From Rhizobium binae (GTDB taxonomy: Bacteria; Pseudomonadota; Alphaproteobacteria; Rhizobiales; Rhizobiaceae): a DNA stretch of 64,000 bases. The stretch spans positions 2,607,001-2,671,000 of the forward strand of contig NZ_CP071604.1 in the NCBI RefSeq assembly GCF_017357225.1, written 5' to 3'. How positions within the stretch are numbered: the first letter of the stretch is position 1; the number at the start of each line of letters is the position of its first letter. The position numbers and the translations under genes are program-made. Below are positions 43,768 to 51,093 of the stretch, one piece after another. Under the pieces are notes generated by a model. That model saw only the letters and a list, made by a program, of their open reading frames with translations. It ran no database searches and was not told the origin of the DNA.

Positions 43768-43979
43768 GCCGAGGCGCTCCTGCTGGGGAGGTCGGTGCCT
43801 CGATTTGCTCCGCAGATACCACAGCTGGCGGTCGAGCGGGGCGCCACGTTCTCGACGCAGGAGACTGAAAGCCTCTCATCTGCCACACAAGGCAGAGCCG
43901 AATTCATTCGTTCAGCCAAAACAACCTCCGTGCTGGCAGCGGGCTCTTTGCCCTGGATTGGGCTTTTCGCCCGGCACGG

Positions 43980-44355
43980 GATGGCAGGTCTCCTGGCTCG
44001 CGGGTATCGGCCACGATCGGGGCGGACCGGAAACCGGTCGCCCCTGATCGTGCCGGCGGACCCGCCTCACCTTCCCGGCTGCTTCGGTGAAGAGGTGGAC
44101 GATTCGTAGAAATAGAGGCGTCCGACCCCGGTTGTTCACCATGCATTTCCAGTGGCTTTTCCGGCATCTCGTCCTTTCCGCCCGCCCGCACCATTGCTGG
44201 CTGCCGGCGAAAAGCGCTGAATGCCGGATGGAAGACCCTAACCGCTCTACAGTCGCGGGGTCGGCTGTGATGAAGGCGCCCGGCTTGGGTCCGCCCCGTC
44301 ACATTCCCTTTTCATCCGGAAGAGCGCAACGCCGATCCGGAACCATCCGTTATGT
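43980..44355 (-). ncRNA. Cobalamin (B12) riboswitch of cobP-cobW-cobN-cobO
   Basis: On the minus strand one reads, in order, GGTTCC, AAAAGGGAAT, the GACCCCGCGACTGTAGAGCGG block, AAGCCACTGG (B12 box), CCGGGAAGGTGAGGC and the ending GAGCCAGGAGACCTGCC. This order is the cobalamin riboswitch consensus. An unusually long arm near the 3' end, GATCAGGGGCGACCGG paired with CCGGTCCGCCCCGATC, and extra bases between the blocks make it longer than usual. It should reduce expression of the operon when adenosylcobalamin is present. The precise ends are uncertain; 44356-44617 contains the CLC promoter region and shows no gene. Confidence 0.93.
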
Positions 44356-44617
44356 CGGGATGGTCAGGCGACCATCCTTATAGCAAAGATGGTTAGGCAA
44401 GCCGGCGATTGAAGTCAACGACCTTCGCGGCCGCCTCGCACCGGATTAGCCACGGAGCTATAGGCCAATACGACTGAGTCTACCGGAAAAATCGTCTTTT
44501 ATCAGAGTCTTACGTCGTGAATATTTGATCGGCGCGCCGGCTTTTCGCCGCAATTGCGTTGCAAGCGGACTGCGCCGTCGCCCTTGAACGGGTCTCTCCC
44601 CGCCTAGTTGTTTAGCC

Positions 44618-47949: not shown

Positions 47950-49449
47950 TCACATCCTATGCAGGTCAGAAAGACGACTCACGATCCCTCCATCCGACCC
48001 CAGCAGCCCCGCAAGCCAGCGCGGATCGAGATGTTTCTCCAGTTCTCCGGCGATCTCGTCGAGCGCCAGCTCGACGCTCTCGCGATAATTCCTCCGCTCG
48101 CCTGACAGGCCGAAGCTCTGTAGCAGTTGCGCGCGGTAGGCATCGCTACCGAACAACCCGTGTAAATAGGTGCCCATGATCCGCCCGTCCGCCGAAACCG
48201 CACCGTCGGTCATGCCGTCTACGATCGCCGAGGGGCGTTCACAATCGGGACCGCTCGTGACGCCGAGATGGATCTGGTAGCCGGCAAGCGGCGCATCATA
48301 TTCTGTCGAGCGCGCCTGGCTGTTGCGCACGGTCTTCTCCGGCGCCATCTCCGTTTCGATATCGAGAAGGCCAAGCCCCGGCGTCTCGGTTGCTCCCCCC
48401 TCGATGCCGAGCGGATCGCGCACGCGCCGCCCGAGCATCTGGTAGCCGCCGCAAATGCCGATCACTCGGCCGCCGCGCCGAACATGCGCGGCAAGATCGC
48501 GGTCCCACCCCGCAGCCCTGAAGTCGGCGAGATCCGCAATCGTCGATTTCGAGCCGGGAAGGATGACCAGGCTCGCATCGGCAGGCAGCCGCTCGCCTGA
48601 CCGCACGAAGACCAGCTCGACATCCGGCTCCGCTTTCAACGGGTCGAGATCGTCGAAATTGGCGATGCGCGGCAATACCGGCACGGCGACCTTCAGCGCG
48701 CCCGCCCCGCCCTTCACCAACCGCTCGAGCACGACCGAATCTTCGGCCGGCAGGCGCCCGGCAGCCGACAGCCATGGCACGACGCCGAAGCAGGGCCAGC
48801 CCGTGTGCCCTTCGATGGCGCGAATGCCGTTGTCGAACAGCGAAACGTCGCCGCGAAACTTGTTGATGATGTAACCCGAGATCATCGCCCGGTCGGCGTC
48901 TGCGAGAATTGCATGCGTGCCGACCAGCGAGGCGATGACACCGCCGCGATCGATATCGCCGACGAGCACCACCGGCACGCCTACCTGCGTTGCAAAGCCC
49001 ATATTGGCGATGTCGCCGGCCCTCAGATTGATTTCGGCCGGCGACCCCGCACCCTCGACAATGACGAGATCGGCGCCCACAGCCACCTTTTCGAAGCTTT
49101 CCAGCACAGCACCAAGCAGCTCGGGCTTCAGCCGCTGATAGTCCCGCCCCTTCGCCTGGCCGAACAGCCTGCCCTGCACGATGATCTGGCTGCCATTTTC
49201 CGATTGCGGCTTGAGCAGCACCGGGTTCATGTGCACCGAGGACGGCGTACGGGCCGCGAGCGACTGCAGCCATTGCGCTCGGCCGATCTCGCCGCCGTCG
49301 TCGGCGACGGCCGCATTGTTCGACATGTTCTGCGGCTTGAACGGCCGCACCGTCAGCCCGTGATTGGCCGCCAGCCGGCAAAGCCCCGCGACCAGCACCG
49401 TCTTGCCGACATCCGAGCCGGTTCCCTGCAGCATGATCGCTCTTGCCAT
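47950..49449 (-). CDS. cobQ: Cobyric acid synthase CobQ
   Basis: A 499-residue enzyme. The N-terminal synthetase domain has GTGSDVGKTVLVAGLCRLA, and the C-terminal glutamine amidotransferase domain contains GICGGYQMLG with the catalytic Cys, and HGLFGSDAYR with the His. It amidates four side chains (b, d, e, g) of adenosylcobyrinic acid a,c-diamide. It is a single gene apart from the other cob blocks. An unusual structured region with a terminator lies 72 bases upstream on the same strand. Confidence 0.95.
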   Translation of the reverse strand: MARAIMLQGTGSDVGKTVLVAGLCRLAANHGLTVRPFKPQNMSNNAAVADDGGEIGRAQWLQSLAARTPSSVHMNPVLLKPQSENGSQIIVQGRLFGQAKGRDYQRLKPELLGAVLESFEKVAVGADLVIVEGAGSPAEINLRAGDIANMGFATQVGVPVVLVGDIDRGGVIASLVGTHAILADADRAMISGYIINKFRGDVSLFDNGIRAIEGHTGWPCFGVVPWLSAAGRLPAEDSVVLERLVKGGAGALKVAVPVLPRIANFDDLDPLKAEPDVELVFVRSGERLPADASLVILPGSKSTIADLADFRAAGWDRDLAAHVRRGGRVIGICGGYQMLGRRVRDPLGIEGGATETPGLGLLDIETEMAPEKTVRNSQARSTEYDAPLAGYQIHLGVTSGPDCERPSAIVDGMTDGAVSADGRIMGTYLHGLFGSDAYRAQLLQSFGLSGERRNYRESVELALDEIAGELEKHLDPRWLAGLLGSDGGIVSRLSDLHRM

Positions 49450-49521
49450 GGTGGCCGCCTTTCGTTCAGGCGAGGCCTACAATGGCGGCCGATCCCGGGT
49501 CAAGGCGCGATCTGCCCGGTT

Positions 49522-49690
49522 AAAACGCGAAAACCGCGCATGGCCGTGGCTCTGCGCGGTTTGCCGAAAACTCAGGCGTCTTCGCCCCTACACGGCGAAG
49601 CTCGCTTTCTCCGGTACGCACTACCTGAACCGGAAAAGCAGCGGTCGTTGCCGCTACGACCCCACTGATAGCGGCACATTCTTACCGGAG
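49522..49690 (-). ncRNA. Candidate structured RNA upstream of cobQ (unidentified)
   Basis: On the minus strand four stems follow each other: GCCGCTA/TAGCGGC (49650-49656 and 49669-49675), TCCGGT/ACCGGA (49610-49634), CTTCGCC/GGCGAAG (49580-49600), and a 9-bp AACCGCGCA/TGCGCGGTT (49532-49561) followed by TTTTCGCGTTTT. The last is a good Rho-independent terminator on that strand only. It may be a free small RNA or an attenuator leader of cobQ. I do not recognise the family, and it lacks the cobalamin riboswitch motifs. The reading frames across it look non-coding. Confidence 0.55.
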
Positions 49691-49826
49691 AGTTATTGAA
49701 GGCTTGCGCAAATGTTAATTTTGACTTTTTTTGATATTCTCGCCAAGATTTCTGCAAAGGAGCCGCCGGCGCTCGCGGACAGCGCGTATTCTCGCTGAAA
49801 GCCGCCATTTTCGGGATTGTGACGTA

Positions 49827-49839
49827 AATTCTTAGAATT
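49827..49839. promoter_or_regulatory. Palindrome AATTCT-T-AGAATT in the betaine-binding gene leader region
   Basis: A perfect 6-bp dyad with one central base, AATTCTTAGAATT, lies in an AT-rich stretch (49700-49860). It is about 250 bases before the binding protein start, within the 639-base gap between cobQ and that gene. No known regulator site matches it convincingly. Confidence 0.3.
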
Positions 49840-50088
49840 CAATGATTTAGACATGCAACCATGAGCAGAAGAGGTTGATTTCTACGAGCGAACGCGTAGG
49901 AGTCACCAGAATGCGCCACTGTTGAATATGGCCTGCGACGAGCTGTTGGAGCCGCAAGGACGACGGCGCCCGTGAACCGGAAAGCCTGTTGCGGCATCGC
50001 CCGGCAGGCATTTTCCCTTCAGGCGCCGGAAAGACTTGCCGGCGGATTTTCAAATCCGAGAGCGCGTCCACCTGAGAAGAATTTGGGG

Positions 50089-51093
50089 ATGACGATGAAG
50101 AGGCTTTTGGTTCCGGCCGTCTTTGCCGCGGCTCTTTTGGCCACCGCTGCGTCCGCCGAGGGTGCCGAATGCGGCAGGGTTTCGATCGCCGAGATGAAAT
50201 GGGCCTCGGCAGGCATTGCGGCGAATTTCGACAAGATCATTCTGGAAAAGGGCTATGGCTGTTCCGTCACCATCGTCGACGGCGACACTCTTCCGACCTT
50301 CGCCTCGATGAACGAGAAAGGCATTCCCGACATCGCCTCGGAATACTGGATCAATTCCGTCAGGGCGCTGCTCGATCAGGCCGTCAACAGCGGTCGCCTG
50401 GTGCAGGGCGCCGAAATCCTTGCCGATGGCGCCGTCGAGGGTTGGTGGATCCCGAAGTTCATTGCCGACGCCAATCCCGATATCCGCTCGGTCGAAGACG
50501 CATTGAGACATCCCGAACTCTTCCCTGCCGAGGATGATGCATCGAAGGGCGCGGTTTACAACTGTCCCGCCGACTGGAGCTGCCAGATATCGACCACCAA
50601 CCTCTTCAAGGCCCTTGCCGCCGACAAGAAGGGCTTCGAACTCGTCGAGACCGGCAGCCCCGAACGGCTCGACGCCTCGATCGCCCGAGCTTTCGACAAC
50701 AAGATTGGCTGGCTCGGCTATTACTGGGCTCCGACCGCCATCCTCGGCAAATACGATATGACGCGACTGAGCTTCGGCGTCGGACACAGCAAGATCGAAT
50801 GGGAGCGCTGCACGGCGGTTGCCGGCTGCGTCAGGCCCCAGCTGAACTCCTATCCGGTCTCGCGTGCCTTCACACTGATGACCAGGTCTTTCGCCCGCCG
50901 TGCCGGGCCCGTCACCGTCTATCTCAAGAGCCGCAAATGGGACAATGAGACGATCAACCAGGTGCTCGCCTGGCAGGATGAAAACCGCGAAAGCAACGAG
51001 GATGCCGCGATCTATTTCCTGCGCAATTACGAGAGCCTGTGGATGAAATGGGTGCCGGTCGATGTAGCCGAGAAAGTCAAAGCGAGCCTATAA
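50089..51093 (+). CDS. Glycine betaine/proline-type ABC substrate-binding protein (orphan)
   Basis: A 334-residue periplasmic protein. The signal peptide (KRLLVPAVFAAALLATAASAEG, cleaved near ASA-EGA) is followed by the OpuAC-like domain: SIAEMKWASAGIAANFDKIILE and IPDIASEYWINSVRALL are typical (here quoted in parts of 20 or fewer residues). EWERCTAVAGCVRP suggests disulfide-linked cysteines. No permease or ATPase gene is nearby, so it is an orphan or shares one. I start at ATG 50089; ATG 50095 is equally possible. The upstream leader of about 200 bases is GC-rich and could fold. Confidence 0.85.
   Translation: MTMKRLLVPAVFAAALLATAASAEGAECGRVSIAEMKWASAGIAANFDKIILEKGYGCSVTIVDGDTLPTFASMNEKGIPDIASEYWINSVRALLDQAVNSGRLVQGAEILADGAVEGWWIPKFIADANPDIRSVEDALRHPELFPAEDDASKGAVYNCPADWSCQISTTNLFKALAADKKGFELVETGSPERLDASIARAFDNKIGWLGYYWAPTAILGKYDMTRLSFGVGHSKIEWERCTAVAGCVRPQLNSYPVSRAFTLMTRSFARRAGPVTVYLKSRKWDNETINQVLAWQDENRESNEDAAIYFLRNYESLWMKWVPVDVAEKVKASL

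Follow-up and report, generated by a model that had tools for sequence, protein, structure and literature searches.

The closest described counterparts of the RNA analysed here are found among the small RNAs (sRNAs) of alphaproteobacteria. SmelC023 (sra03), SmelC289 (sra32), and EcpR1 (SmelC291) are, in the portions of their descriptions available to us, intergenic and mostly single-copy sRNAs built of several hairpins, a conserved loop, and a terminator (PMC3927594, PMC2245857), an organization that our element shares. In the same sources, sra03 holds a strictly conserved loop of 15 nt, and the second loop of our element is also 15 nt long. In contrast, the genes reported next to these sRNAs (polA, proS, and rpmG) are unlike the neighbours of the element, and the loop motif of EcpR1, UCCGCCGCAUCU, differs from that of its loop.

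Two other RNAs have been connected with the cell-cycle regulator CtrA. GspR (SmelC775) from Sinorhizobium is a CtrA-linked sRNA that represses ctrA; in the sections of the report consulted, it is described only in Sinorhizobium, and its 5' end shows no known promoter signature (PMC5928217). For the element studied here, unlike GspR, CtrA is the proposed activator and not a demonstrated target. CcnA from Caulobacter crescentus is a non-coding RNA presumably activated by CtrA, as proposed for our element. However, CcnA acts via a CCCC loop, a sequence absent from the second loop of the element, and no homolog was clearly detected in S. meliloti, according to the part of the report available (PMC8959179).

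The element is located upstream of cobQ in Rhizobium binae, in a stretch of 64,000 nt that was analysed as a whole (hereafter, the window). We propose, with a probability of roughly 0.6, that it represents an independent, mostly single-copy, trans-acting sRNA of the Rhizobiaceae, which would be switched on by CtrA-type activation and would act through its second loop. This proposal relies on comparisons of DNA sequences.

Architecture of the proposed RNA gene

The region 49515-49700 folds on the minus strand with an energy of -83.2 kcal/mol (z -3.69), and none of 200 dinucleotide shuffles was as good. The plus strand of the same region also beats all 200 shuffles (z -3.11); the minus strand is favoured because G-U pairs are frequent in the relatives. 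The minus-strand sequence 49522-49663 forms three hairpins with stems of 7, 8, and 7 bp, followed by a 3-bp mini-hairpin and a long terminator hairpin (Table 1). The closely spaced stems of the original prediction and its terminator-like stem, which runs into TTTTCGCGTTTT, are real, and so is the distance of 72 bases to cobQ on the same strand, as the first base of the cobQ start codon is 49449 and the gap spans 49450-49521. The interval first assigned to the RNA, 49522-49690, needs to be divided: its lower part corresponds to the RNA, while its upper part, together with some 17 bases beyond it, would be a promoter block. The element reads as a small RNA of about 140 nt, extending from approximately 49660 down to 49522 on the minus strand, and we infer a transcription start near 49660.

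Table 1. Positions of the parts of the RNA gene and of its neighbours in the window.
Feature	Position	Strand or orientation	Basis
Hairpin 1 (hp1), 7 bp	49657-49638	minus	sequence and fold
Hairpin 2 (hp2), 8 bp, 15-nt loop	49637-49607	minus	fold, stem covariation
Hairpin 3 (hp3), 7 bp, loop with GUGU	49600-49580	minus	two-sided changes within the genus
Mini-hairpin hp4, 3 bp, GCC...GGC	49577-49563	minus	fold, genus alignment
Terminator hairpin	49562-49531	minus	fold; two-sided changes in 9/9 pairs, 42 diverse members
Interrupted T tail TTTTCGCGTTTT	49533-49522	minus	sequence
Promoter block, whole	49707-49666	minus	conserved upstream of the RNA
Promoter block, upper part, three half-sites at 11-bp steps	49707-49682	minus	conserved in relatives
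Half-site 1 GCAA, degenerate in the window	49707-49704	minus	sequence
Half-site 2 ATAA	49696-49693	minus	sequence
Half-site 3 GTAA	49685-49682	minus	sequence
-10-like box CTATCA	49671-49666	minus	GCTATC/CTA position conserved in alignments
Spacer with promoter-like TTGAC-N16-TTGTAG, putative cobQ promoter	49521-49470	minus	20/20 short-gap Rhizobium loci
cobQ (cobyric acid synthase), neighbour outside the RNA gene	49449-47950	minus	ORF and CobQ-type Pfam domains
Divergent gene with OpuAC substrate-binding domain	50089-51093	opposite side of the RNA from cobQ	Pfam

A scan with a simple terminator consensus did not list the terminator of the RNA; it returned one other site, which is hp1, against 0.9 expected. 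Compared with that consensus, the terminator hairpin is longer and imperfect, and its T run is interrupted. When the 3' segment was folded in isolation, the minimum-energy fold preferred another pairing in several cases.

A coding function was rejected for the shortness of the closed open reading frames (ORFs) and the lack of a common start column. No ORF is shared by the 42 diverse members introduced below, in which the longest closed ORF has a median of 5.5 amino acids and a maximum of 37; closed ORFs of at least 20 amino acids appear in 10 of the 42. The element is an intergenic, conserved, and structured RNA with a terminator and without a shared ORF, which is what generally characterizes trans-acting sRNAs.

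Distribution in the Rhizobiaceae

A nucleotide search of 61 genomes revealed the element in 34, all of them among the 37 genomes of its own genus. In the alignments, conservation starts in the AT-rich upstream block, spans the hairpins, and ends at the T tail. Covariance models extended this distribution to the family, defined here as the Rhizobiaceae in the GTDB sense. Of the 199 family genomes sampled, which represent 109 genera, model R1, built from 30 genus members, matched 147 (84 genera), and model R2, built from 42 diverse members, matched 169 (93 genera). With R2, a single match was found in 166 of the 169 genomes. The genome of R. binae has one true match, and the next one has an E value of 0.8. 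Two matches were obtained in G090, G175, and G213, and the second one in G213 (L252) lacks the loop-2 core. Both matches in G175 are strong (E 3.9e-23 and 8.0e-22), and a true duplication is possible in this genome.

Outside the family, matches are few and weak. The order sample gave matches in 17 of 297 genomes, 13 of which belong to the family, and the class sample in 3 of 289, one of which is the genome of origin. The four remaining matches in the order sample have E values of 1.4e-4 to 7.6e-4, and the two in the class sample of 2.4e-4 and 9.9e-4. These six matches were not counted because the loop-2 core or the promoter block is missing: five lack the core, and L248 has it but lacks the block.

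A pattern scan of named genomes found at least 120 loci. The genera among the loci listed include Rhizobium, Sinorhizobium, Ensifer, Neorhizobium, Mesorhizobium, Phyllobacterium, Brucella, Bartonella, Aminobacter, Nitratireductor, and Hoeflea. Eleven of the 120 loci listed are devoid of the promoter block. Those from Modestobacter, Polaromonas, Cupriavidus, Achromobacter, Paenibacillus, and a Nitrospinota MAG were attributed to chance, and the rest come from Devosia, Aureimonas (two loci), and two MAGs. The hp2 core without the block in Aureimonas (L116 and L205) and Devosia (L138) may correspond to decayed or moved copies or, in Devosia, to chance.

The presence of the RNA in 93 of the 109 genera sampled suggests that it likely does something general, and no Rfam 15 family exists for it. 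The Rhizobiaceae include the main legume symbionts, several plant and animal pathogens, and bacteria with small genomes such as Bartonella.

Conservation of the stems and of loop 2

The original prediction had called for a covariance search and for a check of paired changes in relatives, and both gave results in its favour. In the genus alignment (30 members, aligned with MAFFT without structure), 34 pairs are formed in 99.0% of cases, with 45 two-sided cells, and none of 500 shuffles scored as high, although for one measure out of five, further pair types, a single shuffle among the 500 did. In the alignment of the 42 diverse members, the 16 pairs of hp2 and the terminator are formed in 97.8% of cases, with 63 two-sided cells and two-sided changes in 13 of the 16 pairs, again with none of 500 shuffles as high. 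Slid controls formed 42-52% in the genus alignment and 31-50% in the diverse one, a comparison in which the two structures are favoured, as they were derived from the same alignments that were tested. According to these sequence comparisons, the stems are under selection and are kept by paired changes.

The hairpins differ in the kind of conservation that they exhibit. Within the genus, hp3 carries two-sided changes in all six of its pairs. For hp1, 98.0% of the cells are paired in the 30 members, with no two-sided change, and the three pairs of hp4 are formed in all 30, with little variation and, likewise, no two-sided change. These three hairpins are not alignable across genera, and they were scored sequence by sequence in the 42 diverse members. 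An hp1 stem of at least 4 bp was found in all 42, and in 27 of them it beats 95% of shuffles. An hp3 of at least 5 bp around a G[C/T/A]GT loop appears in 39 of the 42, and an hp4 of the GCC...GGC type in 40, both scored without a control. Moreover, hp3 and hp4 are absent or have been rebuilt in part of the members (for instance, L071, L072, L153, and L199), so that the minimal RNA looks like hp1, hp2, and the terminator. The match in L083 is shorter still.

The most conserved part of the RNA is the loop of hp2 (loop 2), in which the sequence GGU-N3-GCGU is invariant in the 42 diverse members, themselves found with a model built from the genus. This set offers better evidence of invariance than the loci selected by pattern, in which loop frequencies are no proof of invariance because the pattern itself demands GGT...GCGT. 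The best-kept contiguous run of the loop is AUCAGGU, whose complement is ACCUGAU.

Relationship with cobQ

The original prediction left open whether the element is a leader that attenuates cobQ or an independent small RNA. In R. binae the RNA lies just ahead of cobQ and on its strand, and in the 30 genus loci cobQ is also downstream on the same strand, which would suit a leader. However, the distance between the end of the match and cobQ is 48-123 nt in 20 of these loci and 422-601 nt in the other 10 (L014 and L022-L030), and the arrangement breaks down beyond the genus. A leader would always be located on the same strand and directly upstream of cobQ, and of 177 distinct copies, only 74 are followed by cobQ on their own strand. 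In 37, cobQ is encoded on the opposite strand (two divergent within 300 nt and 35 at 0.3-4 kb), and in 66 it was not found within the ranges tested, which correspond to loci of 3-8 kb, so that some cobQ genes may lie out of reach. The 177 copies are those with both the core and the promoter block. Thirteen loci were left out of this set: the core pattern is missing in L010 and L034, and the block in the other 11.

The spacer between the terminator and the cobQ start also argues against a leader. The sequence TTGAC-N16-TTGTA(G/C) is found there in all 20 Rhizobium loci with gaps of 48-123 nt, which suggests that cobQ probably has its own promoter; in the 10 long-gap loci (422-601 nt), it was not found within the 110 nt preceding cobQ. 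A cobQ leader was rejected on the basis of these data, that is, the many copies in which cobQ is on the opposite strand or was not found and the putative promoter of cobQ itself. A leader attenuating cobQ in the Rhizobium arrangement, either beside or instead of a role in trans, is accordingly given very little weight. Of the two options originally offered, the independent sRNA is the one that stands, as the element shows its own promoter block, a terminator, and covarying stems, is distributed throughout the family, and belongs to no Rfam family. Judging from this arrangement of genes, the RNA gene appears INDEPENDENCE from cobQ, and the RNA is probably unconnected with vitamin B12.

Other neighbours identified by motif in the 177 copies are mmsB in 66 (at a distance of about 1 kb upstream), proX in 42, and tgt in 10. 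In one locus (L112), a Pfam match confirmed the identity of mmsB.

The promoter block and CtrA

No promoter was found with a sigma-70 consensus scan. The upstream block of the diverse members reads TTAAG-n6-nTAAC-n6-GTAAC-GATGT-n5-CTA or a variant of it. Three TAA triplets at 11-bp steps are present in 36 of 45 distinct diverse upstream regions, and at least two in all 45 (a loose test). Half-sites 11 bp apart are typical of regulators of the OmpR family. In S. meliloti, the consensus for CtrA is given as TAA-N7-TTAAC in the part of the source available (PMC3616915).

Overlapping pairs of CtrA-like sites 11 bp apart, with up to two mismatches each, occur in 130 of the 146 distinct upstream regions, while mononucleotide shuffles contain them in 233 of 7300 cases, and pairs with up to one mismatch each occur in 92 of the 146; these counts are largely one repeated observation because the upstream regions are homologous. 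The best site has no mismatches in 11 upstream regions, one in 119, two in 12, and three or four in 4. Eight of the 11 perfect sites belong to named Bartonella, two to small genomes of one genus that have the same tgt neighbour, and one to another genome. Most copies are therefore one or two positions away from the consensus, and the first half-site in the window is degenerate. A scan of the R. binae genome with the promoter repeats found 3 places, including the RNA locus, versus 21 for the reversed control.

With candidate sites as its basis, CtrA is the leading candidate regulator of the promoter of the RNA, which would possibly place this RNA under cell-cycle control. The published motifs for CenR, TGA-N8-TGA and AgTCAC--C--cGTgAct, as given in the portions of the sources available, do not fit the block when compared by eye, and control by CenR was rejected. 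If CtrA drives the RNA, the alphaproteobacterial cell-cycle circuit would have an RNA output common to most of a family, and this RNA would join EcpR1, which is broadly conserved, and GspR, found only in Sinorhizobium.

Proposed mechanism of action

The independence of the gene is argued from its conserved promoter block, its covarying hairpins and terminator, and its maintenance in genomes whose cobQ lies at another place or on the opposite strand. In the mechanism proposed, a CtrA-type (OmpR-family) response regulator would bind the 11-bp repeats over the -35 region and switch the RNA on. hp1 and the terminator would protect the ends of the RNA, while hp2 would present its 15-nt loop as the working part. 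The run AUCAGGU in this loop may then pair with target mRNAs through the complement ACCUGAU, which would alter their translation or decay, and hp3 and hp4 would be accessory. When the R. binae genome alone was scanned for the loop-2 complement, there were no perfect places and 45 with one mismatch, including the gene itself; the reversed pattern gave 9.

The loop may also be read in a different manner. CsrB and 6S RNA are RNAs that capture proteins, and loop 2, together with the GYGU segments of hp3 and hp4, could represent repeated sites that capture an RNA-binding protein. The invariant positions of loop 2 are split by three variable ones in the middle, a pattern that suits protein binding as well as pairing. 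In addition, the hp3-hp4 segment holds 2.12 copies of GYGT per RNA, versus 0.65 in mononucleotide shuffles, with at least one copy in 41 of 42 members and at least two in 35. Nevertheless, hp3 and hp4 are lost or rebuilt in some members, and no protein partner is known. Protein capture, proposed by analogy with those RNAs, seems a real, if rather unlikely, alternative. A more specific version of it, a family-wide RNA switched by CtrA whose loop motifs GGU-N3-GCGU and GYGU would capture an RNA-binding protein, constituting a cell-cycle-timed sponge of a kind previously undescribed, is considerably less probable. Antisense pairing through loop 2 is slightly favoured over protein capture because similarly built rhizobial sRNAs pair with their targets, according to the available parts of two reports (PMC5928217, PMC7143759). 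Direct tests are possible by way of the conserved loop, the outer hairpins missing from some lineages, and the unusual promoter.

Known RNA families and previous records

The original prediction had also stated that the element lacks the B12 riboswitch blocks, and the searches agree with this. In the window, Rfam yields a single match, the cobalamin riboswitch RF00174 at 43966-44362 (minus strand, 46.8 bits), 5 kb away, and no family of Rfam 15 covers the element either in the window or in 20 relatives. With an open threshold, the scan of 49440-50130 returned three matches with E values of 1.6 to 8. RF00174 was discarded for the element itself, as it does not match it in the window or in the 20 relatives, and its sole hit in a relative (L068) lies away from the element; it has a different architecture, and the link between the element and cobQ does not hold across relatives. 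The 6S RNA (RF00013) was rejected as well, since it has no match at the element and the genome's own 6S RNA is encoded elsewhere (C1:3780472-3780630). Rfam contains rhizobial sRNA families, and no alphaproteobacterial sRNA family in it matched the element above the gathering score in the window or the 20 relatives.

A different question is whether one of the many sRNA candidates from R. etli, S. meliloti, or A. tumefaciens already records the element under another name, which would be compatible with the independent trans-acting sRNA proposed here. The odds of such a record are about even. Hundreds of candidates have been reported in these bacteria, with coordinates mostly supplementary to the texts available. 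On the other hand, no Rfam family fits, and the descriptions available of conserved S. meliloti families give them different neighbours or loop motifs. R. etli ReC111 is placed at 2546193-2546004 in the part of its record available, whereas the element matches at 2610635-2610855 of a contig of 4,381,608 bp, which we take to be the chromosome of R. etli CFN42; with that identification, ReC111 was rejected for its different place.

A literature search for an sRNA at cobQ retrieved no relevant paper. The word cobQ does not appear in the main text of PMC3927594, PMC2245857, PMC2573895, PMC5596092, PMC2881028, PMC3738593, PMC4167512, or PMC7143759, whose candidate tables are largely supplementary. 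In the parts available, unnamed sRNA candidates of similar size, not placeable on this locus, are listed in PMC5596092 (Table 1) and PMC3738593 (Table 4). The element may have been seen earlier as an unnamed transcript, and no account that treats it as a family was found.

One Rfam match was obtained beside a copy of the element. In L070, the Brucella sRNA CI27 matches at 1663-1826 on the minus strand, exactly at the gathering score, next to the element at 2001-2150. This match overlaps a weak one to CI408, and both look like shared repeat-like palindromic sequence.
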